Of a stretch of 64,000 bases of DNA, positions 36,370 to 59,014 are shown piece by piece. Within the stretch, counting starts at the first letter, position 1. Each line of letters opens with the position of its first letter. The position numbers and the translations under genes were made by a program. The notes beneath the pieces are model-generated. The model ran no database searches, was not told the DNA's origin, and saw nothing but the letters and a program-made list of their open reading frames with translations. Where the stretch lies: contig NZ_CP065997.1 of the NCBI RefSeq assembly GCF_016127315.1, positions 3,720,001 to 3,784,000 on the forward strand. The letters are read 5' to 3'. This stretch comes from Achromobacter deleyi (GTDB taxonomy: Bacteria; Pseudomonadota; Gammaproteobacteria; Burkholderiales; Burkholderiaceae_B).

Positions 36370-37137
36370 CTAGGTCATCAGCCAGCCGCCCGCCACGTCC
36401 AGCACCTGCCCGGTGACGAACCGAGCCTGGTCCGAGGCGAAGAACAGGCAGGCGTCGGCCACTTCCTCGGGCGTGCCGAGGCGGCGCAGCGCGGTGACGT
36501 CGGCCACCGCGTCGTTGATCTCCTTGGGCACGCTCTTCAGCAGCGGCGTGCTGATGCGGCCGGGCGCCAGGCCGTTGACGGTGACGTCGTGCTCGCCCAG
36601 TTCCGCGGCCCAGTGGCGCGTCAGGCCCAGCAGCGCGGCCTTGGTGGCGGCGTAGTGCGCGGCGACGATGTCGCAATAGGCCTTGCCGGCCACCGACGAC
36701 ATGTTGATCACGCGCCCCTGGCGCTGGCGCACCATGTGCGGCGTGGCCAGGTGGGTCATGTAGAACACGCTGTTCAGGTTGACCGCCACCACCTTGTCCC
36801 ACTCGCCCGGCGTCATCTCCCACACCTTCAGCGCGCGGCCGTCGGTCTTGGGCGAGATGCCGACGTTGTTGACCAGGATGGTGGCCGGGCCCAGGTCGCG
36901 GGTGATGCGGTCGTAGGCGGCCTGGCACTGGTCGAAGTGCGAGACGTCGGCGTGCACGAAGGTCACGGCGTGGCCGCGCTTTTTCAGTTCCTTTTCGTAG
37001 GCCTGTCCGCCCTGCGAATTGAAGTCGATCAGCCCGACCTTGCCGCCTTCGGCCAGGAAGCCCTCGACGATGGCCGAGCCGATGCCGCCGACGGCGCCGG
37101 TGACGATGATGACCTGATCCTGGAAGCGCGCGCTCAT
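36370..37137 (-). CDS. SDR family oxidoreductase (acetoacetyl-CoA reductase-like)
   Basis: A 255-aa NAD(P)-dependent short-chain dehydrogenase. Cofactor motif TGAVGGIG at residues ~14-21, NNVG near 91, catalytic Ser in NMSSVAG and Y-x-x-x-K in HYAATKAAL. It resembles PhaB/FabG-type 3-ketoacyl reductases. It is the last gene of the operon that starts at livK, and its ATG overlaps the previous stop in an ATGA junction. It probably reduces or oxidises an intermediate of the transported substrate. Confidence 0.9.
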   Translation of the reverse strand: MSARFQDQVIIVTGAVGGIGSAIVEGFLAEGGKVGLIDFNSQGGQAYEKELKKRGHAVTFVHADVSHFDQCQAAYDRITRDLGPATILVNNVGISPKTDGRALKVWEMTPGEWDKVVAVNLNSVFYMTHLATPHMVRQRQGRVINMSSVAGKAYCDIVAAHYAATKAALLGLTRHWAAELGEHDVTVNGLAPGRISTPLLKSVPKEINDAVADVTALRRLGTPEEVADACLFFASDQARFVTGQVLDVAGGWLMT

Positions 37138-38129
37138 GCCCGCACCTTCAACATGATCTTGCCGATGTGCCGGCTGCTTTCCATCAGCGCGTGGGCCTGG
37201 GCCGCCTGTTCCAGCGGGAACACCGCGTGGATCAGCGGCCGGCAGCTTCCCTGTTCCATCAACGGCAGCACCTTGTCGGCCAGCGACCGGGCAATGGCGC
37301 CCTTGTCCTCGTCGGAGCGCGGCCGCAGGGTGGAGCCGGTGAACGACAGCCGCTTTGTCATGATGGGCAGGGCGTCGATCTCGGCCTTGCTGCCTTCCAG
37401 GAAGGCGATCTGCACCAGCCGGCCGTTGACCGCCAGCAGGCGGATGTTCTTGTTGATGTAGGCGCCGCCGACCATGTCGAGGATCACGTCCACGCCCTGG
37501 CCGCCGGTGGCCTGGCGGACCGCCGCTTCGAAGTCGGTGTCGCGGTAGATCAGCGCGTGCTGCGCGCCGGCCTTCAGGCAGGCCTCGGCCTTCTCCTGGT
37601 TGCCCACCGTGGTCCAGACCTCGGCGCCGAAGGCGCGCGCCAGCTGGATGGCGGTCAGGCCGATGCCGCTGGAGCCGCCGTGCACCAGGAACTTCTCGCC
37701 GGCCACGAGGCGGGCGCGCTCGAACACGTTGGTCCAGACGGTGAAATAGTTCTCCGGGATGGCGGCGGCCGACAGCAGGTCCAGGCCGCGCGGCACCGGC
37801 AGGCAATGGCGTTCGTCGGCCAGGCTGTACTGGGCGTAGCCGCCGCCCGGCGTCAGGGCGCAGACCGGGTCGCCGACGCGCCACTGCGTGACGTCGGGAC
37901 CGACGGCGGTGACGGTGCCCGCGACCTCCAGCCCGAGGTAGGGCGAGGCGCCGGGCGGAGGCGGGTACGAGCCCGAGCGTTGCAGCACGTCGGGTCGGTT
38001 GACGCCGGCGTAGGCGACCTCGATCAACACCTGGCGGCCGCTGGGGGCGGCCATGTCGCGTTCGGCCAGGCGCAGGCAATCGGGCGCGCCGCCCGTGCCG
38101 TGGTCGATGAATGTGCAGCGTAAAGACAT
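37134..38129 (-). CDS. NAD(P)H-quinone oxidoreductase, PIG3/QOR family
   Basis: A 331-aa zinc-free medium-chain dehydrogenase. GroES-like N-terminus with AGVNRPDVLQRSGSYPPPPGASPYLGLEVAGTV, nucleotide-binding VHGGSSGIGLTAIQLARAFGA near residue 155, and SDEDKGAIARSL near the C-terminus, as in human PIG3 and bacterial QOR. It lies 18 bases after livF and is coupled to the SDR downstream. Its substrate in this pathway is unknown. Confidence 0.92.
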   Translation of the reverse strand: MSLRCTFIDHGTGGAPDCLRLAERDMAAPSGRQVLIEVAYAGVNRPDVLQRSGSYPPPPGASPYLGLEVAGTVTAVGPDVTQWRVGDPVCALTPGGGYAQYSLADERHCLPVPRGLDLLSAAAIPENYFTVWTNVFERARLVAGEKFLVHGGSSGIGLTAIQLARAFGAEVWTTVGNQEKAEACLKAGAQHALIYRDTDFEAAVRQATGGQGVDVILDMVGGAYINKNIRLLAVNGRLVQIAFLEGSKAEIDALPIMTKRLSFTGSTLRPRSDEDKGAIARSLADKVLPLMEQGSCRPLIHAVFPLEQAAQAHALMESSRHIGKIMLKVRA

Positions 38130-38147
38130 GAATGCGGTCCTTCGGGT

Positions 38148-38852
38148 TCAGTGGCCCAGATAGGCCTTCTTGACATGGGGATCGGCCAGCAGTTCGGCGC
38201 CGGTGCCCGTGCGCACGATGGCGCCGTTCTCCAGCACGTAGCCGCGGTCGGCCAGGCGCAGGGTGCGGAACACGTTCTGCTCCACCAGCAGCACCGTGAC
38301 GCCGTGGGACGTGACGTCGCGGATGATGTCGAACATCTGCTGCACCAGCAGCGGCGACAGGCCCAGCGACGGTTCGTCGAACACCAGCAGCTTGGGGTCG
38401 GCCATCATGCCGCGCGCGATCGCCACCATCTGCTGCTCGCCGCCGGACAGCGAGCCGGCGTACTGCGCCAGGCGCTCGCGCACCCGCGGGAAGATCTGCA
38501 GCACTTCCTCCAGCTTGCGCTGCACGATCGGGCGGGCGGCGCGCTTGTACGAACCCATCAGCAGGTTGTCGCGCACCGTGAAGTGGGGGAACAACTGGCG
38601 GCCCTCGGGAATCATGGTGATCCCGGCGTCGACGATGTCGTAGGGCGTGCGGTTGGTCAGGTCGCGGCCCTCGAATTCGACCCGGCCGGCGGTGGCGGCG
38701 ACCACGCCGCACAGCGTCTTCAGGGTGGTGGTCTTGCCGGCGCCGTTGGCGCCGATCAGCGTCACGATCTCGCCGGCCCGCACCTCGAAGTTCAGGCCGT
38801 TGAGCACCTGGCTCTTGCCGTAGCCCGACGAAAGATCCGAAACCTTAAGCAT
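38148..38852 (-). CDS. livF: Branched-chain-type ABC transporter ATP-binding protein LivF
   Basis: A 234-aa ATPase. Walker A GANGAGKTT, signature SGGEQQMVAIARGMM, Walker B LLVFDEPSLGLSP, and the LivF ending GAELLADPHVKKAYLGH. It pairs with the LivG half of the upstream fusion. Its start overlaps that gene's end by 8 bases. Confidence 0.95.
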   Translation of the reverse strand: MLKVSDLSSGYGKSQVLNGLNFEVRAGEIVTLIGANGAGKTTTLKTLCGVVAATAGRVEFEGRDLTNRTPYDIVDAGITMIPEGRQLFPHFTVRDNLLMGSYKRAARPIVQRKLEEVLQIFPRVRERLAQYAGSLSGGEQQMVAIARGMMADPKLLVFDEPSLGLSPLLVQQMFDIIRDVTSHGVTVLLVEQNVFRTLRLADRGYVLENGAIVRTGTGAELLADPHVKKAYLGH

Positions 38853-40626
38853 CCTGGTACTCCTTGCCCAAATAGGCCTCGATGACGGCGGGGTTCTCGA
38901 CCACGTCCTTCGGCGCGCCGCTCACCAGCACCGCGCCTTCGTTCAGCACGATGATGCGGTCGGACAGCGCCATGGTGGCCTGCATCATGTGCTCGATCAG
39001 CAGCACCGACACGCCCGAGTCGCGGATGCGGCGGATCATCTTGATCGACTTCTCGATGTCGGTGGGATTCAGCCCCGCCATGACCTCGTCCAGCAACAGG
39101 ATGCGCGGCCGGATGGCCAGGGCGCGCGCGATCTCCAGCCGCTTCATGCCGCCCACCGTCAGGCTGCGGGCCTCGGTGTTCAGGTACTTGAGCAGGTCGG
39201 TTTCCTCGGCGACCTTCAGCGCGATCTGCTCGGCCTCGTCGCGGTCGGCGGTGCGGATGAAGGCGCCCAGCATGATGTTTTCCAGGACCGTCAGGCCGGT
39301 GAAGGGCTTGGCGATCTGGAAGGTGCGGCCCAGGCCCTGGTGCGCGAACTCGTCCGGCGTGCTGCACGAGACCCAGTTGCCGCGCGCGTCCAGCATCGAC
39401 ACCGCGCCCTTGTCCGGCGACAGAAAGCCCGACAGCAGGTTGAACACGGTGGTCTTGCCGGCGCCGTTGGGGCCGATCATGCCCAGGATCTCGTACTGGT
39501 TCAGCGTCAGCGAGACATCGTTGGTGGCGCGCAGGCCGCCGAAGCTCTTGAACAGGTTCTCGGCCTTGAGCACCGGCTGCTCGCGCCGCGCCGCGTCGGT
39601 CGAGCGGGCGGCCTCGACCCGCTGGCGCCGGGCGCGCGGCGTGCCCAGGTACGGCAGCCGCGCCAGGGCGCGCTCGATCGCCGGGCCGAAGGCGCCGGCC
39701 AGGCCGCGCGGGATGGTCAGCACCACCGCCACCAGGATCAGGCCGTAGATCAGCCCGTGCATGCCGTTGCCCACGCTCGACAGCCAGCCGCGCGCCAGCT
39801 CGGCGATCGGCAGCACCAGGAAGGTGCCGGCGATGGGGCCGGCCACCGTGCCCAGGCCGCCGATCAGCGCGAACATCGCCACCTGGATCGACAGTTCCAG
39901 CGAGAAGGCCGAGCTGGGATCGACGAAGGTCAGGTAGGTGATGTGGAAGGTGCCGATCACGCTGGTCAGCATGGCCGACACCACCGCGGCGATGATCTTG
40001 ACGCGCACCGTGTGGATGCCCACCGCCAGCGCCGCGTCCTCGCGTTCGCGGATGGCGATCAGGTAATGGCCGATGCGCGACTTGCGGATGGTCCACGAGA
40101 CCCAGGTCACCAGCAGGAACAGGCCGAAGGCGATGATCACGTAGTTGATCTTCTCGCGGAACACGATCCAGGCCCAGCCGATGTTCAGCGGCAGGCTGAT
40201 GCCGCTGGAGCCGCCGGTCCAGCTTTCCTCGTGGATCACCAGCAGCCGCACCACTTCCAGGATGGCGATGGTGGCCAGCGCGAAGAACGGACCGCGCAGC
40301 CGCAGCGTGGGGTAGCTGATGATGATGGCCACGACGGCCGAGATGAGCGCGCCCGCCAGCATGCCGAACCACGGCGAGATGCCGAAGTTCTGCGTCAGCA
40401 GGGTGGCGGTGTAGCCGCCGATGCCGTAGAACACCGCGTGGCCCAGCGACAGCTGGCCGGCGTAGCCGCCGACGATGTTCCAGGCCACCGACAGCGCGGA
40501 AAAGACGAACAGCAGGACGAACAGGTTGGTCCAGAAGGGCGTGCCCGTGACGACGGGCACGATGAACATGACGATCAGCAGGATCAGGCTGACGTAGGCT
40601 TTGGGGCTTCGAAAGTCGGGAAACAC
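38845..40626 (-). CDS. LivM-LivG fusion: branched-chain-type ABC permease and ATPase in one protein
   Basis: A 593-aa fusion. Residues ~1-310 are a LivM permease with about nine membrane helices (SLGHAVFYGIGGYTATLL; the permease-ATPase coupling motif with EREDAALAVGI; GLGTVAGPIAGTFLV). After a ~40-residue Arg/Ala linker, residues ~350-593 are a LivG ATPase (Walker A GPNGAGKTT, GLGRTFQIAKPF, TVGGMKRLEIARAL, LLDEVMAGLNP, PAVIEAYLGKEY). The two halves are separate genes in most operons, though fusions are known. GTG 40626 is chosen because AAGGAG lies six bases before it; an earlier start would overlap livH. Confidence 0.93.
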   Translation of the reverse strand: MFPDFRSPKAYVSLILLIVMFIVPVVTGTPFWTNLFVLLFVFSALSVAWNIVGGYAGQLSLGHAVFYGIGGYTATLLTQNFGISPWFGMLAGALISAVVAIIISYPTLRLRGPFFALATIAILEVVRLLVIHEESWTGGSSGISLPLNIGWAWIVFREKINYVIIAFGLFLLVTWVSWTIRKSRIGHYLIAIREREDAALAVGIHTVRVKIIAAVVSAMLTSVIGTFHITYLTFVDPSSAFSLELSIQVAMFALIGGLGTVAGPIAGTFLVLPIAELARGWLSSVGNGMHGLIYGLILVAVVLTIPRGLAGAFGPAIERALARLPYLGTPRARRQRVEAARSTDAARREQPVLKAENLFKSFGGLRATNDVSLTLNQYEILGMIGPNGAGKTTVFNLLSGFLSPDKGAVSMLDARGNWVSCSTPDEFAHQGLGRTFQIAKPFTGLTVLENIMLGAFIRTADRDEAEQIALKVAEETDLLKYLNTEARSLTVGGMKRLEIARALAIRPRILLLDEVMAGLNPTDIEKSIKMIRRIRDSGVSVLLIEHMMQATMALSDRIIVLNEGAVLVSGAPKDVVENPAVIEAYLGKEYQDA

Positions 40627-40648
40627 GTCTCGCTCCTTGTGGCTCTGA

Positions 40649-41515
40649 TCACTCTGTGCCGACGCCGAACAGGCCGGTCGGACGCAGGACAAGGATCAAG
40701 AGGAAGATCCCGAAATAGACGACCTCTTTCAGGTCGGGGGCGATGTAGTAGCCGGCCAGCGTATCGACGATGCCGATGATCATGGACCCGGCCACCGCGC
40801 CGTACAGGCTGCCCAGGCCGCCCAGCACTACGATCACGAAGGCGGTCAGCACGAAATACGTGCCCACCGTCGGGAACACCGGGTACTGCGGCGCCAGCAG
40901 GCCCGCGGCGATGCCGACGAAGGCGGTGCCCAGGCCGAAGGCGATGGCATAGACGTTGTTGACGTTCACGCCCATCAGCGTGGCGGCGTAGCGGTGCTGC
41001 GCCACCGCCCGCAGCGCGCGGCCCAGGTAGGTGCGGTGCATGAACAGGTGCAGCAGCACGGCCAGGCTCAGCCCGACCACGAAGGTCACCAGCTGGCCGG
41101 TGACCATGGAGTAGTTGCCGACGTCGATGGCGCTGGTGCCCAGTTGCACCGGGGCGCGGAACACGTTGGCGCCGAAGATCACCAGCGCCAGGTTCAGCAG
41201 GATGGTGGACACGCCCACCGTGGCGAAGATCTGGATGTGCTGGTCGGCGTTGAGCAGCGGCTGGATGATGCCCTTCTGCGTCAGCGCGCCCAGCGCGAAC
41301 AGGATGACCGCCACCGGCACCAGGCCGATGTACGGATGCACGCCGAACTGCGCCGCGATCAGATAGACCAGGTACATGCCGATCATCAGGAATTCGCCGT
41401 GCGCGAAGTTGACGACGCGGACCACGCCGAAGATCAGCGTCAGCCCCAGGCTGATGATGGTGTAGGCGCCGCCCAGCAACAGGCCATTGATGACCAGTTG
41501 AATGAATATATCCAT
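40649..41515 (-). CDS. livH: Branched-chain-type ABC transporter permease LivH
   Basis: A 288-aa inner-membrane permease with about eight helices. LivH signatures are SLGLTLIFGVVRVVNFAHGEFLMIG at the N-terminus, RALRAVAQHRYAATLMGVNVNNVY (the ATPase coupling motif) and GGLGSLYGAVAGSMIIGIVDTL. It partners the LivM half of the fusion. AGAGG before ATG 41515 supports the start. A hairpin separates it from livK. Confidence 0.95.
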   Translation of the reverse strand: MDIFIQLVINGLLLGGAYTIISLGLTLIFGVVRVVNFAHGEFLMIGMYLVYLIAAQFGVHPYIGLVPVAVILFALGALTQKGIIQPLLNADQHIQIFATVGVSTILLNLALVIFGANVFRAPVQLGTSAIDVGNYSMVTGQLVTFVVGLSLAVLLHLFMHRTYLGRALRAVAQHRYAATLMGVNVNNVYAIAFGLGTAFVGIAAGLLAPQYPVFPTVGTYFVLTAFVIVVLGGLGSLYGAVAGSMIIGIVDTLAGYYIAPDLKEVVYFGIFLLILVLRPTGLFGVGTE

Positions 41516-41595
41516 GGTGCAACCTCTAAGAGCGGGGTGCGCCCCGGCGCCGTGGCGCGGCCGACGGAACCGGGGCCCGCGGGCCCCAGTGAAAC

Positions 41596-41619
41596 GCCGG
41601 ACGCCCCCGAGCGTCCGGT
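41596..41619 (-). terminator. Intercistronic hairpin between livK and livH
   Basis: CCGGACGC and GCGTCCGG form a perfect stem around a six-base loop (41597-41618). There is no T run, so it probably acts as a partial terminator or mRNA stabiliser, giving more binding protein than permease. This is common in liv operons. Confidence 0.55.
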
Positions 41620-41665
41620 TTGCTGGCTTGCCGTGCCGGGCCTGCCGGTTGGCGGCCCTGGCGTT

Positions 41666-42865
41666 CTATTTCTTGAAGACGGGCTTGCCGAGCGCGAGGT
41701 TGTCGGGCGCGATGGTGACCAGCTTGCCGTCCTGCCACTGCATCACGTAGAAGGTCGAGGCGTTGTTCTGGCCGTCCTCGCCGAAGTCGAAGGCCCAGCC
41801 GTTGGCGGTCTGGCCGGCGGGCTTCTTGTACGCCAGCACGGCCGCGCGGATCTTGTCCTTGTCGGTCGACTTGGCGTTGGCGATGGCTTCGAAGAAGGCC
41901 TTGGCGCCGACGTAGTTGGTCAAGCTGTGGCCGGACTGCGGATCGCTCTTGTAGGTGGCCTTGTAGGCTTCCAGGAACTTGTCCAGGCCCGGCGCGCCGG
42001 CCGGGTTGATGGACGATTGCGGGAAGTCCAGGTCGAACACGCCGTTCATGTCGGCGCCCACCGCCTTGGCGGTGTCGGCCAGCGAGTAGCCGCCGCCGGC
42101 GCCGATCACCACCTTGGGCTTGAAGCTGGCGGCGCGCGCCTGGCTGAAGTACAGGATGGCGTCGTTCTGGTAGGCCGTCTGCAGCACCACGTCGACCTTG
42201 GCGCCCTTCAGGCGCAGGATCAGCGACGACAGGTCGACCGTCTTGGCCGAGTAGGGCAGCACCTCGGCCACGGTGTAGCCGAGCTCCTGGGCGCGCTTTT
42301 TCTCGGTGGCGGCCACGTCGGTGCCGTAGGGGCCGTCCTCGTGGATGATGCCGATGCGCACTTCCTTGGGGTTCAGGCCCATGCCCGGCCCGATGATGTC
42401 GTGCAGGGCGTTGACCACCGACACGCCGTACAGCGCGGTGTTGGGGTTGCTGCGGAACAGGTACTTGTAGCCGCGCGTGGTGATCTTGTGGGCGGTGGCG
42501 CCCAGCTCGAAGTAGGGCACGCCGGCCAGTTCGGTCACGGGCGAGGCCGCGTACGAGATGCCCGAGGCGTAGCTGCCGAACACGCCGACCACGTTCGACG
42601 AGATCAGGCGCTTGGTCTCGGACACCGCCTGGGTCGGGTCGACCGCGTCGGCCTTGATGATCTGGATCTTCTCGCCGTTGATCCCGCCGGCGGCATTGAT
42701 TTCGTTGACGGCCAGTTCCAGGCCGCGATAGCTCTCTTGTCCCAGCAGCGCCAGGGCGCCGCTGAACGGGAAGAGGGCGCCCACCTTCATGTCGGCCGCC
42801 GCGGCGCCGCTTGCCAGGGCGCCGCACAGGCCCAGCGCGATGGCGAATTTGTTGATCTTGAACAC
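41666..42865 (-). CDS. ABC transporter substrate-binding protein, LivK-type
   Basis: A 399-aa periplasmic type I binding protein. Signal peptide cut after GAAAA, then MKVGALFPFSGALALLGQESYRGLELAVNEINAAGGING, typical of the amide/urea/branched-chain family; further motifs GSYASGISYAASPVTE and PYGTDVAATEKK. GTG start at 42865 with AAAGGAG eight bases upstream. First gene of the operon running to 36370. The palindrome ATATATGATATAT lies 64-76 bases upstream. Given its neighbours, the ligand is more likely an organic or sugar acid than leucine; this is inference. Confidence 0.93.
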   Translation of the reverse strand: MFKINKFAIALGLCGALASGAAAADMKVGALFPFSGALALLGQESYRGLELAVNEINAAGGINGEKIQIIKADAVDPTQAVSETKRLISSNVVGVFGSYASGISYAASPVTELAGVPYFELGATAHKITTRGYKYLFRSNPNTALYGVSVVNALHDIIGPGMGLNPKEVRIGIIHEDGPYGTDVAATEKKRAQELGYTVAEVLPYSAKTVDLSSLILRLKGAKVDVVLQTAYQNDAILYFSQARAASFKPKVVIGAGGGYSLADTAKAVGADMNGVFDLDFPQSSINPAGAPGLDKFLEAYKATYKSDPQSGHSLTNYVGAKAFFEAIANAKSTDKDKIRAAVLAYKKPAGQTANGWAFDFGEDGQNNASTFYVMQWQDGKLVTIAPDNLALGKPVFKK

Positions 42866-43197
42866 GGTCTACGCTCCTTTGTGGGATTGGGATGCGGACT
42901 GCTTTGTGAATCGTCCGTCTGTTTTTGAATATATGATATATGCACCGGAGGGGTGTGAGAACCTCGTCCTGGATTCTAGTGCCGGACTTGCCCGGCTGAA
43001 TCGGGGATTTCCCTCAAGCCGCATGAATAAAGCGTTTGCGGGCAGTTTTGCATTGGGGGAAGGGCCAAATTCCGCTGGGCGGGTGCTGTTTCGAGGACCC
43101 TTTTCGGGCATCGATCCTGGCAAGAAAGTTCCCCTTTACATCATATATCCTATATGATCGAAAGGCGTTTGAGCATAAGAATCCAGGAGACAAGAGC
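42866..43197. promoter_or_regulatory. Divergent promoter region with two GntR-type palindromes
   Basis: 332 bases without a gene between livK (minus) and the SDR operon (plus). It holds ATATATGATATAT (42929-42941), a 13-bp palindrome with one central base, and ATCATATA/TATATGAT (43140-43147 and 43151-43158) around TCC. The first is the exact reverse complement of the site at 47894-47906 beside the GntR gene. Each lies close to one of the two start codons, so one regulator probably controls both directions. Confidence 0.7.
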
Positions 43198-43980
43198 ATG
43201 TTCGAGGAAGTGGATTTCGCCGGAAAAAAGGTACTCATCACCGCCGGCGCCGATGGGCTGGGCCTGGAAATGGCGCAGGTGTTCCACCGCGCCGGGGCAG
43301 CAGTGCTGGTGTGCGACGTCAACCGCGAGCGGCTGGCCGCGCTGCCGGCCGAATTGCCGGGCGTGCGCGCGGTGCATGCCGACGTGTCCGACGAAACCAG
43401 CGTGGCGGCCTTGTTCGAGACGGTGCGCCAGCAGTTGGGCGGCCTGGACATCCTGGTCAACAACGCCGGCGTGGCCGGCCCCACCGGTTTCGTCGAGACG
43501 CTCTCCAAGGCCGACTGGGACCGCACCCTGGCGGTCAACATCACCGGCCAGTTCCTGTGCGCGCGCCAGGCCATCCCGCTGCTCAAGCAGTCGCCCGCCG
43601 GCGTCATGATCAACCTGTCGTCGGCCGCGGGCCACCTGGGCTTTGCCGGGCGCTCGGTCTATTCGGCGTCCAAGTGGGCGGTGATCGGCTTCACCAAGTC
43701 GCTGGCGATCGAGCTGGGCGGCCACGGCATCCGCGTCAACGCCATCCTGCCGGGCGCGGTCGAAGGGCCGCGCATCCGCGCCGTGATCGAGGCCAAGGCC
43801 AAGACGCTGGACAAGCCGGTCGACGAGATCGCCGCGCTCTACGAGAACCAGGCGGCGCTGGGCCGCATGGTCACGGCGCGCGACATCGCCAACATGGTGC
43901 TGTTCAATGCCAGCGAGGCCGCCCGCAGCGTCACGGGGCAGGCCATCGTGGTGGACGGCTTCACGCAGAAGCTCTACTGA
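43198..43980 (+). CDS. SDR family oxidoreductase
   Basis: A 260-aa short-chain dehydrogenase. The cofactor motif is TAGADGLG (family T-G-x3-G-x-G with Ala at the second position), followed by NNAGVAGP, NLSSAAGHLGF, the YSASKWAV catalytic Tyr/Lys, and a long C-terminal loop (IRAVIEAKAKTLDKPVDEIA). It probably oxidises a hydroxyl group of a sugar acid or hydroxy acid. AGGAGA precedes ATG 43198. First gene of a three-gene operon; its stop overlaps the next start (TGATG). Confidence 0.92.
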   Translation: MFEEVDFAGKKVLITAGADGLGLEMAQVFHRAGAAVLVCDVNRERLAALPAELPGVRAVHADVSDETSVAALFETVRQQLGGLDILVNNAGVAGPTGFVETLSKADWDRTLAVNITGQFLCARQAIPLLKQSPAGVMINLSSAAGHLGFAGRSVYSASKWAVIGFTKSLAIELGGHGIRVNAILPGAVEGPRIRAVIEAKAKTLDKPVDEIAALYENQAALGRMVTARDIANMVLFNASEAARSVTGQAIVVDGFTQKLY

Positions 43981-44942: not shown

Positions 44943-45870
44943 ACCCAAGCAGAAAGTCGTGATCACCTGCGCCGTGACGGGCGCCATCCACACGCCCAGC
45001 ATGTCGCCGCACCTGCCGGTGACGGCCGACGAGATCGCCGAGGCCGCCATCGGCGCGGCCCGCGCCGGCGCCGCCGTGCTGCACCTGCATGCGCGCGACC
45101 CGGAAACCGGCAAGCCGTCGCAGGACCCGGCGCTGTTCGAGCCGTTCCTCAGGCGCATCAAGGCCGAGACCGACGCCATCATCAACATCACCACCGGCGG
45201 CAGCCCGCACATGACGGTGCAGGAGCGCATGCGGCCGGCCACCACCTTCAAGCCGGAGCTGGCGTCGCTGAACATGGGGTCGATGAACTTCGGCCTGTTC
45301 CCGATGCTGGGCCGCTTCCAGGACTTCAAGCACGACTGGGAGCGCGAGCACCTGGAGAACAGCCGTTCGCTGATCTTCCGCAACACCTACCAGGACATCG
45401 AGTCGATCCTGGAGCTGGGCAACGCCAACGGCACCCGCTTCGAGTTCGAGTGCTACGACATCAGCCACCTGTACAACCTGGCGCACTTCGTCGACCGCGG
45501 CCTGGTGAAGTCGCCGCCATTCATCCAGTCGGTGTTCGGCATCCTGGGCGGCATCGGCCCGCACCCCGAAGACCTGATGCACATGAAGCGCACCGCAGAC
45601 CGCCTGTTCGGCAATGAGTACGAATGGTCGATCCTGGGCGCCGGCCGCAACCAGATGCCGCTGGCCACTATCGGCGCCGCCATGGGCTCGAACGTGCGGG
45701 TGGGACTGGAGGATTCGCTGTGGATCGGGCCGGGCCAGCTGGCCGAGTCAAACCGCTCGCAGGTCGAGCGCATCCGCACCATCCTGGAAGCGCTCAACCT
45801 GGAAGTGGCCACGCCGGCCGAGACCCGCGCCAAACTGGGCCTGAAGGGCGGCGACAACGTGGCGTTCTGA
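44935..45870 (+). CDS. Beta-keto acid cleavage enzyme (BKACE, DUF849)
   Basis: A 311-aa zinc-dependent TIM-barrel enzyme. The metal site HLHAR at about residues 48-52 and the N-terminal CAVTGAIHTPSMSPHLPVT are diagnostic; NITTGGS, SLNMGSMNFG and FGNEYEWSILGAGRNQMPL are also present. Family knowledge: BKACE condenses a beta-keto acid with acetyl-CoA, giving acetoacetate and a shorter acyl-CoA; known substrates include 3-keto-5-aminohexanoate and dehydrocarnitine. Specificity cannot be read here. It likely takes the 3-keto product of the preceding dehydrogenase. Confidence 0.93.
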   Translation: MAKPKQKVVITCAVTGAIHTPSMSPHLPVTADEIAEAAIGAARAGAAVLHLHARDPETGKPSQDPALFEPFLRRIKAETDAIINITTGGSPHMTVQERMRPATTFKPELASLNMGSMNFGLFPMLGRFQDFKHDWEREHLENSRSLIFRNTYQDIESILELGNANGTRFEFECYDISHLYNLAHFVDRGLVKSPPFIQSVFGILGGIGPHPEDLMHMKRTADRLFGNEYEWSILGAGRNQMPLATIGAAMGSNVRVGLEDSLWIGPGQLAESNRSQVERIRTILEALNLEVATPAETRAKLGLKGGDNVAF

Positions 45871-46008
45871 AGCCAATCCGGGCGAGGGCGTGCGCGCCGC
45901 CGCCGGGCCGATGCCCCCGCTGATGGGGCGGCGCGCGGCCCGCCGGATGCGGGGCGTGGCGCTCCCGGGCGCCGCCCGCGGGACGTCGCCCGCGCGAGCG
46001 GCGGAGCG

Positions 46009-47076
46009 TCAGGCGTGGCGGCGCAAGGCGTCGACGAGGGTATTGATGTCCAGCGGACGATCGAAATTGGCGGCATGGCGCGCGGCCAGCGTCAGCTCGG
46101 CGGCCCGCGCCAGTTCGGCGTCCGACGGCGCGGCCGCGCCCAGCGCACTCAGCGTGGTGGGCAGGCCGACCTGTTCGTACCACTGCGTCAGGGTGGCCAG
46201 CATGCCGTCCTGGCGCGCCTCCAGGTCCAGCTGCACCAGCAGGCCGACGGCCACCTGCAGGCCGTGCGGCGCGTTGGCCAGGCCGTTGATTTTCGGCAGG
46301 CCGCGCGTCAGGGCGTGGGCGATCGACAGGCCGCCGCTCTCGAAACCCAGGCCGCTCATCAGGATCATGGCTTCCACCACCCGTTCGAACGCGGGCGTGG
46401 GCTGGCCGCTGCCGGCCGCCGCCAGCGCGTCGGCGCCGTCGGCCAGCAGCGTGCGCAGGCAGCCGTCGGCGATCAGTTGCGCGGTCAGCGGCGGGACGCC
46501 GTCGTACATGTTGCGCCCGCCGTTGCGGGCGCATTGCTCGGCCTCGAATTTCTTCGAGATGGCATCGCCCAGGCCGGCGCGGAAGAACGCCGCGGGCGCG
46601 GTGGCGATGACGGCGGTGTCCACCAGCACGATGGTCGGGTTGAACAGCATGTGTTCGACCGCCAGGAGGTTGTGATGGGCGTCGTACAGCACATAGTTCT
46701 TGCTGGTGGGCGCGTCGTTGGAGGCCACCGTGGGCACGGTGACGAGATGGCAGTGCTCGGCCTTGGCGACCGCCTTGCCGGCGTCCAGCGCCTTGCCGCC
46801 GCCCACCGCGATCACCATGTCGGTGGCGGCGGCCGCGGCCTGCGCGCGCAGCGCCGCGATCGAGTCGGGCGTGATGTCGCCTTCGACCGGCAGGGCGGTC
46901 AGCGCCACGCCGTGGGCGCCGCACAATGCCTCGATTCTCGGGCCCAGCACGCCCTGCACGTAGCGGTCGATGACCAGGGCGGCGCGGCGGCCGAACAGGG
47001 CGGCGTATCCGCCCAGCGCGTCGAGCGCGCCGGCTCCCTGGATGTAGCGGCCGGGAGCGCCGAAAATCTTCAGCAT
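46009..47076 (-). CDS. Iron-containing alcohol dehydrogenase, glycerol dehydrogenase (GldA)-like
   Basis: A 355-aa group III metal-dependent dehydrogenase. NAD-binding VIAVGGGKALDAGKAVA, TVPTVASNDAPTS, and metal ligands in GLGDAISKKFEA (Asp), SIAHALTRG (His) and ANAPHGLQVAVG (His). The overall pattern follows glycerol dehydrogenases that interconvert glycerol and dihydroxyacetone, but related proteins use other small diols or hydroxy ketones. It lies 9 bases after the GntR gene on the same strand, so the two form one transcript. Confidence 0.9.
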   Translation of the reverse strand: MLKIFGAPGRYIQGAGALDALGGYAALFGRRAALVIDRYVQGVLGPRIEALCGAHGVALTALPVEGDITPDSIAALRAQAAAAATDMVIAVGGGKALDAGKAVAKAEHCHLVTVPTVASNDAPTSKNYVLYDAHHNLLAVEHMLFNPTIVLVDTAVIATAPAAFFRAGLGDAISKKFEAEQCARNGGRNMYDGVPPLTAQLIADGCLRTLLADGADALAAAGSGQPTPAFERVVEAMILMSGLGFESGGLSIAHALTRGLPKINGLANAPHGLQVAVGLLVQLDLEARQDGMLATLTQWYEQVGLPTTLSALGAAAPSDAELARAAELTLAARHAANFDRPLDINTLVDALRRHA

Positions 47077-47085
47077 CGAATCTTC

Positions 47086-47790
47086 CTATTTGCGAGGCCC
47101 GGGCGGGCGGTAGTCGAGTTCTTTTTCGCGTTCGACCAGCCAGTCGATCATGATCTTGCCGCCCCACACCAGGTCGGCCTGGATCGCCTTGGTGGCGGCT
47201 TCCGGGTCGCGCGCCTCCAGCGCGGCCAGCACCGCTTCGTGGCGGTGTTCGTCCTGGGAGTAGTCGAGCCCGGCCGTCTTGATGTGGAACACCTTGAGGA
47301 TCGGGCCGGTGATGACCCAGAACGATTCCACGGTGTTGCGCAGGATGGGCTTGTTGCTGGCTTCCAGGATGCCGAAGTGGAACTTGCGGTTCAGGTAGCT
47401 GGCGCGCTTGGGGTCGGTCGAGGTGCAGGAGATGAAGTCCTTCTGCAGCGCGATCAGGTTGTCCAGCTGCTTGCGCGTGATGTTCCTGGCGGCCTCGGCC
47501 GCGCCCATGCCTTCCAGGTGGAAGCGGATCTGCTGGATCTCGCGCAGCTTTTCCGAATTGACATAGGGCACGTAGACCGCGGTGGCGGCCTGCATTTCCA
47601 GGCCCTGTTCGCTGATGAGGCGGAAGATGGCCTCGCGCACGGGCGTGATCGAGACGCCCATTTCCTGGGCCAGCTCGCCAATGATGAGGCGTTCTCCGGG
47701 TTCGTACTGCCCGTTGATCAGGGCGTTACGGATCTCGTTGTAGACCTTGACGGAGAGGTTCTCTTTTTTTACCGGTTTAAGGCTGGGCAT
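47086..47790 (-). CDS. GntR family regulator, FCD (FadR) subfamily
   Basis: A 234-aa regulator. N-terminal winged HTH (LSVKVYNEIRNALINGQYEPGERLIIGELAQEMGVSITPVREAIFRL) and a helical FCD domain whose His residues (RKFHFGILEAS, EHRHEAVLAAL) usually bind a metal and a carboxylate ligand. ATG 47790 gives the standard start; ATG 47877 would add 29 atypical residues. It is divergent from the transketolase operon with an AT-rich palindrome between them, and the same palindrome stands before livK. It is therefore the probable master regulator of this region. Confidence 0.93.
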   Translation of the reverse strand: MPSLKPVKKENLSVKVYNEIRNALINGQYEPGERLIIGELAQEMGVSITPVREAIFRLISEQGLEMQAATAVYVPYVNSEKLREIQQIRFHLEGMGAAEAARNITRKQLDNLIALQKDFISCTSTDPKRASYLNRKFHFGILEASNKPILRNTVESFWVITGPILKVFHIKTAGLDYSQDEHRHEAVLAALEARDPEAATKAIQADLVWGGKIMIDWLVEREKELDYRPPGPRK

Positions 47791-47893
47791 GACGGTCGAG
47801 GCTTGCGGGTTCGATGGAATGGACGGAAGCCGTGAAACGGCGCCCGGCTGAATTCTATCCCGCCCTGGCCAATTCAAGCGCGATGGGTATATT

Positions 47894-47906
47894 ATATATC
47901 ATATAT
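47894..47906. promoter_or_regulatory. Probable GntR operator
   Basis: ATATATCATATAT is a palindrome around one central base, identical (reverse complement) to the site at 42929-42941. It lies between the divergent gntR and transketolase genes, 22 bases before the chosen transketolase start, so it could repress that operon and autoregulate gntR. Confidence 0.68.
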
Positions 47907-47928
47907 TCTAATGAGCGAAGGAGACGCC

Positions 47929-48786
47929 ATGCGCCAGGACCGGGGAGACCCAAGCGAAGACGAGGTCCGGATGCTGCGGGAAAAGGCCCGCCACATCCGG
48001 CTGGAAACCATCAGGCTGATCGAGATCGCCAAGGTCGGGCACTACAGCTCGGTCTTCTCGTGTGCCGAGATCTTTGCCGCGCTGTATTACGACGTGATGC
48101 GGCTGCGCCCGGGCGAGCCGGCCTGGCCGGATCGCGACCGCTTCCTGATGGGCAAGGGCCACGCCGCGGTGGGGCTGTTCCCGGTGCTGGCCGACCACGG
48201 CTTCATCCCGCATGCGTTGCTGGACGGCTACACCCGCCTGGGCAGCCCGCTGGGCGACCATCCCGACATGACCAAGGTGCCGGGCGTCGATTTCAGCTCC
48301 GGCTCCATCGGCCACGCGCTGTCCAACGGCGCCGGCATGGCGCTGGGCGGCCGCATGAGCCAGCGCGACTTCAACGTGTTCGTGATGCTGGGCGACGGCG
48401 AGATGCAGGAAGGCCAGGTGTGGGAGGCGGCGCTGTTCGCCGCGCACCACAAGCTGTCGCGCCTGGTCGCCATCATCGACCGCAACGGCTACCAGCTCGA
48501 CGGCAAGGTCGATGACGTGATCGGCGTGGAATCGCTGCGCGACAAGTGGCAGGCCTTTGGCTGGGAGGTGCACGAGGTCGACGGCCACGATCTGGTGGCG
48601 CTGACCGCGCTGCTGCGCCGCCTGCGCGCCGACGAGGCGCGCGCGCGGCCCGCCTGCGTCATCGCCAGGACCATCAAGGGCAAGGGCGTCTCCTATATGG
48701 AAACCGAACCCGGCTGGCATCTGGGCTACCTGGCGCCGCAGGACGCGCAGGCCGCCATCGACGAAATCATGACCCGCGAGATCTGA
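47929..48786 (+). CDS. Transketolase, N-terminal (ThDP-binding) subunit
   Basis: A 285-aa alpha subunit of a two-gene transketolase. Motifs: RLIEIAKVGHYSSVFSCAEIFAALYYDVMR, KGHAAVGLFPVL, the ThDP-binding LGDGEMQEGQVWEA through IIDRNGYQ (G-D-G...N), and IARTIKGKGVSYME. Two ATGs are possible: GAAGGAG lies six bases before ATG 47929 while none precedes ATG 47911, so 47929 is preferred. The C-terminal subunit follows immediately. Split transketolases often act in specialised pathways on short keto sugars rather than in the pentose phosphate cycle. Confidence 0.93.
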   Translation: MRQDRGDPSEDEVRMLREKARHIRLETIRLIEIAKVGHYSSVFSCAEIFAALYYDVMRLRPGEPAWPDRDRFLMGKGHAAVGLFPVLADHGFIPHALLDGYTRLGSPLGDHPDMTKVPGVDFSSGSIGHALSNGAGMALGGRMSQRDFNVFVMLGDGEMQEGQVWEAALFAAHHKLSRLVAIIDRNGYQLDGKVDDVIGVESLRDKWQAFGWEVHEVDGHDLVALTALLRRLRADEARARPACVIARTIKGKGVSYMETEPGWHLGYLAPQDAQAAIDEIMTREI

Positions 48787-49773
48787 ATGGCACAGGCACA
48801 GACGCTTTCCCCCGATTCCTGGCAGTACCGCGCGCTGAACGCGGTGAACCCCGGGTTGTCGTATCTTTCCGACGCGCTGGTCGAACTGGCGCAGGCCGGG
48901 CACCCGGTGATGGCCGGCTCGGCCGACCTGCAGTATTCCAACGGCCTGAACCGCTTTGCCTCGGCCTATCCCGACCGCTACGTGCAGTTCGGCATCTCCG
49001 AGCAGAACATGGTGTCGGCCGCGGCCGGCCTGGCCACCACCGGCGCCATGCCGTTCGTGGCGACCTTCGCCTCGTTCCTGGGCCTGTTGTGCTGCGAACA
49101 GATCCGCATGGACGTGGCCTACACCAGGCTGCCGGTGCGGCTGATCGGCCATCACACCGGCATCAGCCTGGGTTTCTACGGCACCTCGCACCACGCCACC
49201 GAGGACATTTCGACCATGCGCGCCATCGCCGGCCTGACCGTGGTGTCGCCGGCCGACGGCCCGCAACTGGCCGCCGCCATCAAGGCCTCGGTGGACTGGC
49301 CCGAGCCGATCTACTTCCGCATTGGCCGCGGCCGCGATCCGCAGGTCTATGAGGACGGCACGCCGTTCACGTTCGGCCGCGCCATCGTCCATTCGCGCGG
49401 CAGCGACCTGAACATCATCGCCTGCGGCATCACGCTGCACGCGGCGCTGCAAGCCGCCGCCCGGCTGCGCGAGGACGGCCTGTCGGTGGGCGTGATCGAC
49501 ATGCCCACCATCAAGCCGCTGGACCGCGAGGCGGTGCTGGCGGCCGCCGGGCAGGCGCGCGTCCTGCTGACGGTGGAAGAGCACAATGTGATGGGCGGCC
49601 TGGGCTCGGCGGTGGCCGAGGTGCTGGCCGATGCCGGCAGCGGCACGCGGCTGCGGCGCCATGGCATCTACGACGAATACAGCCTGATCGCCCCGCCCAC
49701 CACGCTGTACGCGCACTACCAGCTCGACGGCGCCGGCATCGAGGCGGTGGCGCGCGAACTCATCGCGCGATAG
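48787..49773 (+). CDS. Transketolase, C-terminal subunit
   Basis: A 328-aa beta subunit. Pyrimidine-binding domain with the catalytic Glu in QFGISEQNMVSAAAGLATTGAMPFVATFASFL, the HHTGISLGFYGTSHHATEDISTMRAI stretch, and the transketolase C-terminal domain (TVEEHNVMGGLGSAVAEVLAD). It is adjacent to the alpha subunit without a gap, and together they form the active heterotetramer. With the neighbouring dehydrogenases it probably moves a two-carbon unit from a keto intermediate. Confidence 0.94.
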   Translation: MAQAQTLSPDSWQYRALNAVNPGLSYLSDALVELAQAGHPVMAGSADLQYSNGLNRFASAYPDRYVQFGISEQNMVSAAAGLATTGAMPFVATFASFLGLLCCEQIRMDVAYTRLPVRLIGHHTGISLGFYGTSHHATEDISTMRAIAGLTVVSPADGPQLAAAIKASVDWPEPIYFRIGRGRDPQVYEDGTPFTFGRAIVHSRGSDLNIIACGITLHAALQAAARLREDGLSVGVIDMPTIKPLDREAVLAAAGQARVLLTVEEHNVMGGLGSAVAEVLADAGSGTRLRRHGIYDEYSLIAPPTTLYAHYQLDGAGIEAVARELIAR

Positions 49774-49829
49774 GGCGTGCCAGCATTCACGGGCGCCGGA
49801 CGCCGGCGCCACGAAACGGAGACAGAGCA

Positions 49830-50639
49830 ATGAAGGAAATCAGCGGCAACACCCGCCTGTTCGGCATCCTTGCCGACCCGATCTACCACGTCAAGACCCC
49901 GCAGCGCATGAACGAGCATTTCGCCCGCATCGGCTTCGACGGCGTCTGCGTGCCGTTCCATGCGCGGCCGGACAACCTGGCCGAGGTGGTGGCCGGACTG
50001 CGCCGGCTGGAGAACCTGGGCGGCCTGATCGTCACCATGCCGCACAAGGCGGCGATCCTGGCGCTGGCCGACGACGCCACGCCGGTGGCGCGCAAGATCG
50101 GCGCCGCCAACGTGGTGCGGCGCGAGGCCGACGGCCGCCTGGTGGCGCACATGCTGGACGGCGAGGGCTTCGTGCGCGGCCTGCGCACGCACGGCGTGGC
50201 GCCCGAGGGCAAGAGCGCCTATCTGGCCGGCGCCGGCGGCGCGGCCAACGCCATCGGCTTCGCGCTGGTGCAGGCGGGCGTGTCGCGCTTGACCATCGCC
50301 AACCGCACGCCGGCCAAGGCCGAGGACCTGAAGGCGCGCATCCTGTCGCTGCATCCCGGGGCCGACATCGCGGTCGGCACGGCCGATCCGTCGGGCCATG
50401 ACCTGGTGGTCAACGGCACCTCGCTCGGCATGAAGCCGGACGACGCGCTGCCGCTGGACGCGGCGCGGCTGACGTCCGACCAGCTGGTGTGCGAAGTCAT
50501 CATGCAGCCGGCCGACACGCCGTTGCTGGTGGCGGCGCGGGCGCGCGGCTGCAAGGTGCACTACGGCGCGCCGATGCTGGCCGGGCAGATCGAGCTGATG
50601 GCGGAAATGATGGGCGTGGCGCCGGCCGCGCAACGCTGA
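49830..50639 (+). CDS. Shikimate dehydrogenase-like protein (AroE superfamily paralog)
   Basis: A 269-aa NAD(P)-dependent dehydrogenase of the AroE/YdiB fold. Catalytic Lys in VTMPHKAAIL, AANVVRREADG, catalytic Asp in LDGEGFVRGL, cofactor motif LAGAGGAANAIGFAL, and NGTSLGM. The substrate-binding start differs from true AroE (GILADPIYHVKTP lacks the usual SxS pair), so it probably acts on another cyclic or polyhydroxy acid, such as quinate or a related compound. It lies 56 bases after the transketolase subunit on the same strand. Confidence 0.9.
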   Translation: MKEISGNTRLFGILADPIYHVKTPQRMNEHFARIGFDGVCVPFHARPDNLAEVVAGLRRLENLGGLIVTMPHKAAILALADDATPVARKIGAANVVRREADGRLVAHMLDGEGFVRGLRTHGVAPEGKSAYLAGAGGAANAIGFALVQAGVSRLTIANRTPAKAEDLKARILSLHPGADIAVGTADPSGHDLVVNGTSLGMKPDDALPLDAARLTSDQLVCEVIMQPADTPLLVAARARGCKVHYGAPMLAGQIELMAEMMGVAPAAQR

Positions 50640-50657
50640 GGCGCGACGGACGAGACG

Positions 50658-52256
50658 ATGGGCGACTACGACTTCATTATCGCGGGCGGCGGCACCGCCG
50701 GCTGCATCCTGGCCAACCGCCTGACGGCCGACGGCCTCCACCGGGTGCTGATGCTGGAGGCCGGGCACGAGGCGCGCAGCATGTGGATCTCGATCCCGGC
50801 GGGCTTTTCCAAGCTGCTGGTGAACCCGGACTACAACTGGCGCTTCGCCACCGAGCCGGAGGACAACGTCTACGGCCGCACCATCGCCGTGCCGCGCGGC
50901 AAGGGCCTGGGCGGCTCGACGCTGATCAACGGCATGATCTACGTGCGCGGCCGGCCGCAGGACTACGACGGCTGGGAGGCCGCCGGCGCCACCGGCTGGG
51001 GCGGCGGCACCGCCGAGCGCGTGTTCCGCAAGATCGAGTGCTTTGAGCCCGGCGGCGAGACCCGCGGCAAGTCCGGGCCGATGCACCTGGAGGAAGTGGC
51101 CGAGCGCTTTCCGGTGTCCGACGCCTTCCTGCGCGCGGCCCAGGAAGACGGCCTGCCGCTCAACCCGGACTACAACGCCGGCCGTCAGGACGGGGTCGGC
51201 TATTACCAGGTGGTGCAGCGCCGCGGCCGCCGCTGGAGCGTGGTGGACGGCTACCTGAAGCCCGCCGCCGGCCGCAAGAACCTGACGGTGGAGTGCGGCG
51301 CGCACGTGACGCGGCTGCTGTTCGAAGGCAAGCGCTGCGTCGGCGTGGCCTACCGCAAGAACGGCCAGGAATTCACCGTGCGGGCGCGGCGCGAGACGCT
51401 GCTGTGCCTGGGCGCGGTGCAGTCGCCGCAGCTGCTGGAGCTGTCGGGCGTGGGCCACCCCGCGCTGCTGCAATCGTTCGGCATTGCGCTGGTGCACGCG
51501 CAGCCGCAGGTGGGCGAGAACTACATCGACCACTTCGCCACGCGCATGAACTGGCGGGTCCGGAACACCGTGACGCTCAACGAGATGTCGCGCGGCTGGC
51601 GCCTGGCGCGGCAGGTGGCGCGCTACTACACCCGCCACAAGGGCATCCTGACGCTGGGCACGGGCCTGGTGCATGGCTTCGTCAAGAGCGCGCCGGACCT
51701 GCCGGCGGCCGACGTGCAGTATTTCTTCGTGCACGCCAGTTACGCCAACGCGGCCGAGCGCATCCTCGACCGCGCGCCGGGCATGACCATCGGCGTGGCG
51801 CAGCTGCGGCCGGAGTCGGTGGGCTCGATCCACCTGAAATCGGCCGACCCGCTGGCCGCGCCGTCGATCCGGCCGAACTTCCTGTCGGCGCAGGTCGACC
51901 GCGACAGCCTGGTGGGCGGCATGCGGGTGGCGCGGCGCATCGTGCAGCGGCCGGCCCTGCAACACTATGTGGAAAGCGAGTTGAGCCCGGGGGCGGCGGT
52001 GGACAGCGACGAGCAATGGCTGGACTTCGCGCGCCGCAACGGCCAGACCATCTACCACCCGATCGGCACCTGCCGCATGGGCACGGATGCCGGCGCCGTC
52101 ACCGACCCGCGCCTGCGCGTCCATGGCATCGCCGGCCTGCGGGTGGTGGACGCCTCGGTGATGCCGAAGATGGTATCGGGCAACACCCAGGCGGCGGTGA
52201 TGATGGTGGCCGAGCGCGGCGCCGAGATGATCCTGGAGGATGCCGCCGCCGCGTGA
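50658..52256 (+). CDS. GMC family FAD oxidoreductase (choline dehydrogenase-like)
   Basis: A 532-aa glucose-methanol-choline oxidoreductase. FAD motif FIIAGGGTAGCILANRL at the N-terminus, GMC signature 1 PRGKGLGGSTLINGMIYVRG, signature 2 GAVQSPQLLELSGVG, and the C-terminal active-site His in YHPIGTCRMG plus SGNTQAAVMMVAE. It oxidises a primary or secondary alcohol and passes electrons to a quinone or cytochrome. It ends the operon that starts with the transketolase, 18 bases after the AroE-like gene, and is convergent with the next cluster. Confidence 0.93.
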   Translation: MGDYDFIIAGGGTAGCILANRLTADGLHRVLMLEAGHEARSMWISIPAGFSKLLVNPDYNWRFATEPEDNVYGRTIAVPRGKGLGGSTLINGMIYVRGRPQDYDGWEAAGATGWGGGTAERVFRKIECFEPGGETRGKSGPMHLEEVAERFPVSDAFLRAAQEDGLPLNPDYNAGRQDGVGYYQVVQRRGRRWSVVDGYLKPAAGRKNLTVECGAHVTRLLFEGKRCVGVAYRKNGQEFTVRARRETLLCLGAVQSPQLLELSGVGHPALLQSFGIALVHAQPQVGENYIDHFATRMNWRVRNTVTLNEMSRGWRLARQVARYYTRHKGILTLGTGLVHGFVKSAPDLPAADVQYFFVHASYANAAERILDRAPGMTIGVAQLRPESVGSIHLKSADPLAAPSIRPNFLSAQVDRDSLVGGMRVARRIVQRPALQHYVESELSPGAAVDSDEQWLDFARRNGQTIYHPIGTCRMGTDAGAVTDPRLRVHGIAGLRVVDASVMPKMVSGNTQAAVMMVAERGAEMILEDAAAA

Positions 52257-53442: not shown

Positions 53443-53460
53443 GGGGTCTCCTGTGCGGGG

Positions 53461-54279: not shown

Positions 54280-54331
54280 GCGGGTTGTCTCCATTGTCGT
54301 TGTCATCGGGCAGGGGGCGGGGCCGGCGGCC

Positions 54332-55706: not shown

Positions 55707-55716
55707 GGCGCGTCCC

Positions 55717-56400: not shown

Positions 56401-56422
56401 CGTCTCGCTCCCTGGGGCCGCG

Positions 56423-57655: not shown

Positions 57656-57665
57656 GGCGGAAACC

Positions 57666-58180: not shown

Positions 58181-59014
<834 letters not shown>

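Follow-up and report, generated by a model that had tools for sequence, protein, structure and literature searches.

In the oxidative deoxyribose/deoxyribonate pathway of Price et al. (2019; PMC6365646), which according to the available portion of that paper is found in Burkholderiales as well, a short-chain dehydrogenase (SDR) and a beta-keto acid cleavage enzyme (BKACE) process a 2-deoxy-3-hydroxy sugar acid. For BKACE15 of Paracoccus denitrificans (PMC11961710; structures 8RIO, 8RIP and 9HNF), the substrates listed in the accessible part of its description are small neutral beta-keto acids, one of them 5-hydroxylated, and the physiological role is stated there by the authors as unknown. Here, a block of 15 genes spanning ~16 kb (36370..52256) was analysed within a 64,000-nucleotide stretch of Achromobacter deleyi DNA (contig NZ_CP065997.1, positions 3,720,001 to 3,784,000; hereafter the window, whose numbering is used unless stated otherwise), in which a BKACE gene is accompanied by genes for a LivK-type transporter, a split transketolase, an AroE-like dehydrogenase and a GMC-family oxidoreductase. 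Profile searches against Pfam and NCBIfam, combined with a map of open reading frames, placed all 15 genes where the original prediction had put them and agreed with the content assigned there; some starts were refined by eye. The block is a conserved, tightly co-regulated catabolic set comprising both uptake and breakdown genes, and we propose that it may degrade a partly deoxygenated, sugar-like compound.

Three AT-rich palindromes are present in the LivK|SDR2 and GntR|TktN gaps of the block. Allowing at most one mismatch, ATATATSATATAT occurred at exactly three places in the 6,987,272-base genome, all of them within the block, and a reversed control pattern gave 0 matches genome-wide. At up to two mismatches the window contained six matches versus 0.01 expected (100 shuffles), comprising the three operators, two overlapping shifts and one match outside the block (31708-31720, 2 mismatches). 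Conservation of the sites was assessed in 22 loci from named genomes holding the block or its contig-cut remains (L001-L022). Operator 1 (TGAATATATGATATATGCA, 42926..42944, upstream of LivK) was kept in 22/22 loci, operator 2 (ATCATATATCCTATATGAT, 43140..43158, upstream of SDR2) in 19/22, and operator 3 (TATATTATATATCATATAT, 47888..47906, in the GntR|TktN gap) in all 20 loci that reach the site. In two of the three loci without operator 2 (L020, L022), SDR2 trails the LivK operon on the same strand. The sharing of palindromes, already noticed in the original prediction as a tie between the operons, is beyond chance, and the regulon is real and strictly local; its proposed centring on GntR agrees with this, the GntR/FCD regulator (47086..47790, minus strand; PF00392 and PF07729), which adjoins operator 3, being the predicted binder of all three sites.

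Presence and absence of genes in relatives were counted by tblastn because a simple gene caller missed or misplaced genes. All 15 genes were recovered together, at set identity thresholds, in 16 of 26 tabulated A-type loci; among the 26, L002, L012, L019, L032, L112 and L117 were cut by contig or fetched-stretch ends. The two transketolase genes, TktN and TktC, were not found next to AroE at five of these loci (L011, L021, L032, L111, L117); genomes G267 (L111) and G352 (L117) had no Tkt match anywhere at E <= 1e-55, and G237 (identical to L011 here) had a distant one only. The quinone/enone oxidoreductase gene QOR was missing in L018, which also lacks CRYL1, in L111, and in G098, where LivF adjoins SDR1. 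The most reduced locus, L111 of G267, has only SDR1, LivKHMGF, GntR, AroE and GMC left, operators included. Loci L032 and L117 carry QOR-SDR1-AroE-GMC-SDR2-CRYL1-BKACE in this order, adjoining a set of genes for a three-component (E1-E2-E3) dehydrogenase complex (SDR2 of L117 was found by tblastn, and E1 of L032 is cut by the contig end). The block is modular, with LivKHMGF-GntR-AroE-GMC-SDR1 as its core, SDR2-(CRYL1)-BKACE as a portable unit, TktN/C as an optional part and QOR as a dispensable one. The AroE-GMC pair was also seen in two other families (L113, L114, L115), with an FAD-linked oxidase inserted between the two genes in L115; among the AroE neighbourhoods searched for hints of a substrate, this recurrence gave no clear clue.

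The portable unit consists of SDR2 (43198..43980, plus strand), recognised by profile match and placed as a 3-hydroxyacid dehydrogenase, the CRYL1-like 3-hydroxyacid dehydrogenase (43980..44942, plus strand; PRK06129, 463.1 bits vs a cut-off of 347), whose closest solved relatives are lambda-crystallins, and BKACE itself (44935..45870, plus strand; PF05853, 366.8 bits; NF053538, 563.7 bits vs a cut-off of 430). Proteins with 99% identity to this BKACE occur in A. dolens, A. ruhlandii, A. insuavis and one A. pulmonis strain, and sequence comparison places it close to BKACE15. Catalytic E171 and R254 (BKACE15 numbering) were kept in 107/107 aligned rows, window included, and the position of the amine-binding Glu of the lysine-fermentation enzyme is occupied by Ile in the block and in 102/107 rows overall. 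Among the best 80 BKACE loci, 22 (L001-L022) hold the block or its remains and one (L032) a variant; in the other 57, an SDR2 relative was nearby in 41, a CRYL1 relative in 21 and either of them in 47. Relatives 74-80% identical to the block BKACE were accompanied by an Rbs-type sugar transporter and an SMP-30 lactonase at five loci (L023, L044, L078, L079, L162) and by major facilitator superfamily (MFS) carriers at twenty, of which L165 additionally has an SMP-30 lactonase and L074, in Arthrobacter, a glycerate kinase. The SDR2-BKACE unit recurs in sugar-acid settings, as in the published deoxyribonate operon, and the predicted step in which a 3-hydroxyacid dehydrogenase feeds a BKACE using acetyl-CoA is supported.

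In the 107-row BKACE tree, the block BKACE fell into one 26-row clade and the Castellaniella pair elsewhere, among units that for the most part accompany a different Liv transporter or an adenosine deaminase. A single clade of A-type loci, a group defined after viewing the first tree, was rejected for joined SDR2, CRYL1 and BKACE (approximately unbiased test, p-AU 0.003; 46 rows, made up of the window and the loci in which SDR2, CRYL1 and BKACE are all present, less two duplicates) and not rejected for BKACE alone (p-AU 0.072; 86 of the 107 rows, without three long rows, the solved BKACE15, two near-duplicates and most L05x/L06x). Genome G267 has the core without the BKACE unit and an 81% identical BKACE unit elsewhere. 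The core and the unit may have come together on two separate occasions, or on a single one with a later separation in the G267 line. As separate observations, an adenosine deaminase gene lies near an SDR2-(CRYL1)-BKACE unit in L024, L025, L034 and L157, which hints at a deoxynucleoside link, and the source genome has two more sets of BKACE, LivK-like and SDR genes at genome positions 2246039-2249238 (L138) and 2333333-2336292 (L139).

The split transketolase is encoded by TktN (47911..48786, plus strand, start codon uncertain; PF00456), the thiamine diphosphate (ThDP)-binding half, whose closest solved relative is 6yak, and by TktC (48787..49773, plus strand; profile and alignment), the pyrimidine-binding and C-terminal half. 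All three domains are present and the catalytic Glu (human E366) is kept. In transketolases, human Asp424 contacts the alpha-hydroxyl of the aldehyde. This position is Tyr in 20/20 distinct A-type TktC sequences (24 rows with duplicates), which keep Ser345, His416 and Arg474 (human numbering), and Tyr was found there in 0/12 other split transketolases sampled. We take human Asp424 to be equivalent to Asp469 of Escherichia coli transketolase. Exchange of Asp469 for Thr, according to the part of that literature available, gives activity on propanal and aromatic aldehydes, i.e. on aldehydes without an alpha-hydroxyl, and we read the Tyr as a sign that the natural aldehyde product of TktN/C may likewise lack this group. 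The two-subunit enzyme had been correctly recognised as a split pair, with the qualification that its active site is altered and that it is missing from part of the loci. Its position in the scheme has to be revised, from after BKACE to, more likely, before it and as an optional step: BKACE requires an alpha-CH2 in its beta-keto acid, and the transketolase cut was placed first because one and the same CH2 would satisfy both enzymes.

Neighbourhoods of split transketolases in other Burkholderiales were considered as a further source of substrate hints and set aside, as they belong to other subfamilies and their contexts were uninformative. One such transketolase-like pair (L141-L146, L148-L150) has Leu/Ala/Ala in place of Ser345/His416/Asp424 in 9/9 cases and, because all three residues are replaced, is perhaps not a sugar-phosphate transketolase.

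Oxidation of the imported compound could be shared among several enzymes. The AroE-like protein (49830..50639, plus strand; profile and alignment) scored below the cut-off of all 18 curated families listed, its top match reaching 165.9 vs 252. The paired serines of shikimate dehydrogenases bind the substrate carboxylate. Both are replaced in the block protein (HVKTP, with Val and Thr, vs e.g. HSLSP in 2EGG), and rows at least 54% identical to it have Val and Thr or Ala at these positions. A true shikimate or quinate dehydrogenase was rejected on these grounds, which also speaks against the quinate-like part of the originally guessed substrate. AroE relatives adjoining dehydroquinase and dehydroshikimate-dehydratase-like genes (by eye) form a different subfamily, and 5-ketofructose reductase (7COK), named for an open-chain keto sugar, is a distant relative (117.6 bits). 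The GMC-family FAD alcohol dehydrogenase (50658..52256, plus strand; profile match) has 8b7s, a chloramphenicol-inactivating oxidoreductase, as its closest solved relative. The GldA-like vicinal-diol dehydrogenase (46009..47076, minus strand) scored 328.3 bits on PRK09423, slightly below the cut-off of 336, and SDR1 (36370..37137, minus strand; Pfam adh_short_C2), the final gene of the LivK operon, belongs to the core retained by G267. For the CRYL1-like protein, a carnitine or betaine role is not supported, as the scores on two carnitine 3-dehydrogenase models (207.6 vs 592 and 169.3 vs 414) are far under the cut-offs, which also weakens the betaine option raised earlier.

A second gene set, designated cluster B, is a likely partner of the block. 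It lies at 2,181,655-2,195,930 (2.18 Mb) of the source genome (L131, L132), outside the window to which the earlier reading was confined, and contains genes for E3, E2, a glyoxalase-family (VOC) protein, a fused E1, SDR-B1, a second Liv transporter, a second AroE-like protein, SDR-B2 and a second GntR, its parts having been identified from their similarity to L019. In the order sample, 6/399 genomes gave a match to the fused E1 (E <= 1e-150), and all six have the core; they are exactly those members of the family (13 sampled) with an AroE relative of at least 54% identity, and three of the six come from one genus, so that the events are not independent. Outside the family, four genomes have an AroE relative of 57-63% and no E1. 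In a class-wide sample of 369 genomes, with few members of the same order, E1 was found in the source genome only (E <= 1e-130). Cluster B and the core lie next to or very close to each other in G267, G352 and G098, and form one locus in L019. E1 scored below both pyruvate-dehydrogenase cut-offs, and the complex would be either an acetoin-type or a 2-oxoacid-type dehydrogenase. No palindrome site (<=2 mismatches) was present in the fetched cluster B stretches or at either of the two loci of Castellaniella type (L032, L117). Elsewhere, a paralogous fused E1 (51%) was noted in L155 (G138:C12, ~3073-13581), accompanied by E2 and a glyoxalase-like protein, which were both recognised by eye, next to a histidinol-dehydrogenase-family protein, an SDR, an alcohol dehydrogenase and parts of an ABC transporter.

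In the reading we prefer, to which we give a probability of about 0.35, the block would be one inducible catabolic regulon under its dedicated GntR/FCD regulator. The LivK-type transporter would import a polyhydroxylated compound, i.e. a polyol, ketose or related acid that is partly deoxygenated and contains the element -CHOH-CHOH-CH2-CHOH-, and oxidation by the AroE-like, GMC, GldA-like and SDR1 enzymes would yield an alpha-hydroxyketone. This intermediate would then be cut by a ThDP enzyme, with TktN/C passing the fragment to an aldose phosphate or the E1-E2-E3 complex of cluster B passing it to CoA, to give an aldehyde without an alpha-hydroxyl, which would undergo oxidation to a 2-deoxy-3-hydroxy acid. 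SDR2 and the CRYL1-like enzyme, perhaps one per stereoisomer, would oxidise C3 to yield a beta-keto acid, from which BKACE and acetyl-CoA would produce acetoacetate and a small hydroxyacyl-CoA, e.g. glycolyl- or glyceryl-CoA. The common palindromes, the conservation and modular build of the block, the joint occurrence of core and E1-E2-E3 and the active-site residues are direct findings; the substrate class, the order of steps and the assignment of enzymes to oxidations are all inferred. A more specific version, in which the transketolase retuned by Asp-to-Tyr and/or the acetoin-dehydrogenase-like complex cuts 4-deoxyketoses (from 3-deoxy-polyols, saccharinates and similar compounds) to 2-deoxyaldehydes, whose breakdown the two-dehydrogenase BKACE unit completes, would let one CH2 explain both chemistries and is tentative, rather unlikely as it stands.

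Several points weigh against this reading. The available literature describes an Asp-to-Thr variant, Asp-to-Tyr not being met there, and Tyr would fit an aromatic aldehyde just as well. Human Arg318, which makes the fourth phosphate contact, falls outside the alignment. Tkt is absent from 5/26 A-type loci and therefore not essential to the whole pathway. None of the 15 genes encodes an aldehyde dehydrogenase (L019 carries one), so that this oxidation would fall to GMC or to a gene located elsewhere. Glycerate kinase, lactonase and sugar kinase are absent from the block, 16/57 BKACE loci outside it (among the best 80) have no SDR2 within reach, and LivK-type carriers take amino acids or aromatic acids more often than polyols.

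Among the alternatives, a 2-deoxyaldonate pathway of the deoxyribonate type, in which the main reactions are those of SDR2, CRYL1 and BKACE, with side reactions or salvage left to AroE, GMC, GldA and Tkt, is possible though somewhat unlikely. The published Pseudomonas simiae and Paraburkholderia pathway has the same SDR-BKACE unit, and two genomes from a single family of Burkholderiales (L163, L164) carry AraC-BKACE-MFS-SDR-SDR2 sets resembling that of Paraburkholderia bryophila. The BKACEs of these sets, however, fall into a clade of their own, with 58-62% identity to that of the window, and the lactonase, MFS carrier and glycerate kinase are absent from the 15 genes (the rest of the genome was not searched for them). 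The G267 core, moreover, persists under its own operators without the BKACE unit, and the core enzymes are therefore not mere accessories. Another proposal, that the block belongs to triacetate/phloroglucinol breakdown with the CRYL1-like protein as (S)-3-hydroxy-5-oxohexanoate dehydrogenase and BKACE as triacetate acetoacetate-lyase, draws on the NCBIfam 3,5-dioxohexanoate model NF053538, which the BKACE passes, and on the known pathway, which in the available part of its description likewise combines an SDR with a 3-hydroxyacyl-CoA-dehydrogenase-like enzyme and a lyase of the BKACE family (PMC10470551). We consider it very improbable: the 15 genes include no cyclase-family dihydrophloroglucinol hydrolase, the position of Ile in the block BKACE is taken by Trp in the published lyase, and transketolase, AroE-like, GMC and GldA would have no role there.

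The altered transketolase residue and the closest solved relative of GMC could instead point to an aryl-C3 compound (arylglycerol or similar), whose side chain would be oxidised by the AroE-like or GMC enzyme, the aromatic aldehyde being freed by TktN/C or E1-E2-E3 and BKACE splitting an aroyl-acetate. The substrate of the chloramphenicol-inactivating oxidoreductase is an arylpropanediol, the D469T variant of E. coli transketolase admits aromatic aldehydes, with Tyr here at the matching place, and the transporter is of LivK type. The BKACE15 authors also state, in the part available, that genetic context suggests aromatic degradation (PMC11961710), although the substrates listed there are aliphatic. 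With 74-80% identical BKACEs adjoining sugar transporters, lactonases, MFS carriers or a glycerate kinase, and the 15 genes containing no aromatic-ring family (a check that did not extend systematically to the flanks of relatives), this explanation is unlikely. A cyclitol or quinate-like ring, made into a cyclic hydroxyketone by the AroE-like enzyme and opened by E1-E2-E3, is suggested by the AroE family membership and by the co-occurring acetoin- or 2-oxoacid-dehydrogenase-like complex, but is quite improbable given the replacement of both carboxylate-binding serines, the different subfamily of the AroE relatives found beside dehydroquinase-type genes, and the poor quality of a cyclic ketone as transketolase donor. 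As to the original guess at the substrate, its polyhydroxylated nature is probable and its quinate-like character is not, the nearest precedent being deoxyribonate oxidation.

The remaining genes of the block, all on the minus strand, encode QOR, a PIG3-type quinone/enone oxidoreductase (37134..38129; TIGR02824, 459.5 bits vs a cut-off of 296.8), and, by profile match, the LivF ABC ATPase (38148..38852), a LivM-LivG fusion of permease and ATPase (38845..40692), the LivH permease (40649..41515) and the LivK-type binding protein (41666..42865; Peripla_BP_6). The closest solved relative of LivK is a probable Leu/Ile/Val-binding protein (169.5 bits), and sequence comparison with solved relatives revealed no readable ligand class. 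Next to the block, at 52339-60783, lies an apparently separate sugar-acid route with an enolase-superfamily dehydratase, an amino-acid-type ABC transporter, galactarate-dehydratase-like, SDR and 2,4-didehydro-3-deoxy-rhamnonate-hydrolase-like proteins and a PcaR/KdgR-like regulator; where scores were shown, none of these reaches its curated cut-off. The first two genes of this set adjoin the block in 5/26 A-type loci, and in G098 an 84% relative of its dehydratase is found beside cluster B.

If our preferred reading, import of a partly deoxygenated polyol or ketose followed by a ThDP cut and a BKACE split, is true, the block would supply marker genes and a degradation pathway for sugar-like compounds that are partly deoxygenated, a class for which, to our knowledge, few pathways are known, as well as a natural transketolase variant useful in biocatalysis. 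Most components of the block belong to known types. The absence of a described pathway with this gene set, remarked on in the original prediction, still holds in open PMC text, where no published match to the gene combination was found.

Compared with the deoxyribonate pathway, the block likewise has an SDR gene adjoining BKACE, but lacks a lactonase and a glycerate kinase; the Burkholderiales-type gene order of that pathway goes with a BKACE clade other than the block's. The word transketolase does not occur in the main text of its description, and the part available mentions no AroE-like, GMC, GldA or Liv genes (PMC6365646). The anaerobic phloroglucinol pathway of Clostridium scatologenes, as far as its description is available (PMC10470551), similarly sends a beta-keto acid through a 3-hydroxyacyl-CoA-dehydrogenase-like enzyme and a BKACE-family lyase; it needs a cyclase-family hydrolase that is absent in the block, and has Trp in the pocket where the block has Ile. 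BKACE15 shares Glu171, Arg254 and the pocket Ile with the block BKACE, and differs in that the accessible part of its description mentions no transketolase cluster (PMC11961710). The 5-ketofructose reductase parallels the block's AroE-like protein as an AroE-family oxidoreductase named for a keto sugar, with only a distant sequence relation. Special transketolases are also known from sugar catabolism, namely the apulose-4-phosphate and sulfofructose enzymes, which occur with kinases or sulfonate enzymes; unlike those pathways, the block has neither. The closest solved relative of both Tkt halves is the two-chain, split-gene transketolase of Carboxydothermus hydrogenoformans (6YAJ and 6YAK; available part of PMC7661550), which keeps the Asp where TktC of the block has Tyr. 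The BKACE unit itself is a known end-piece, seen here to be portable and joined to different upstream routes.

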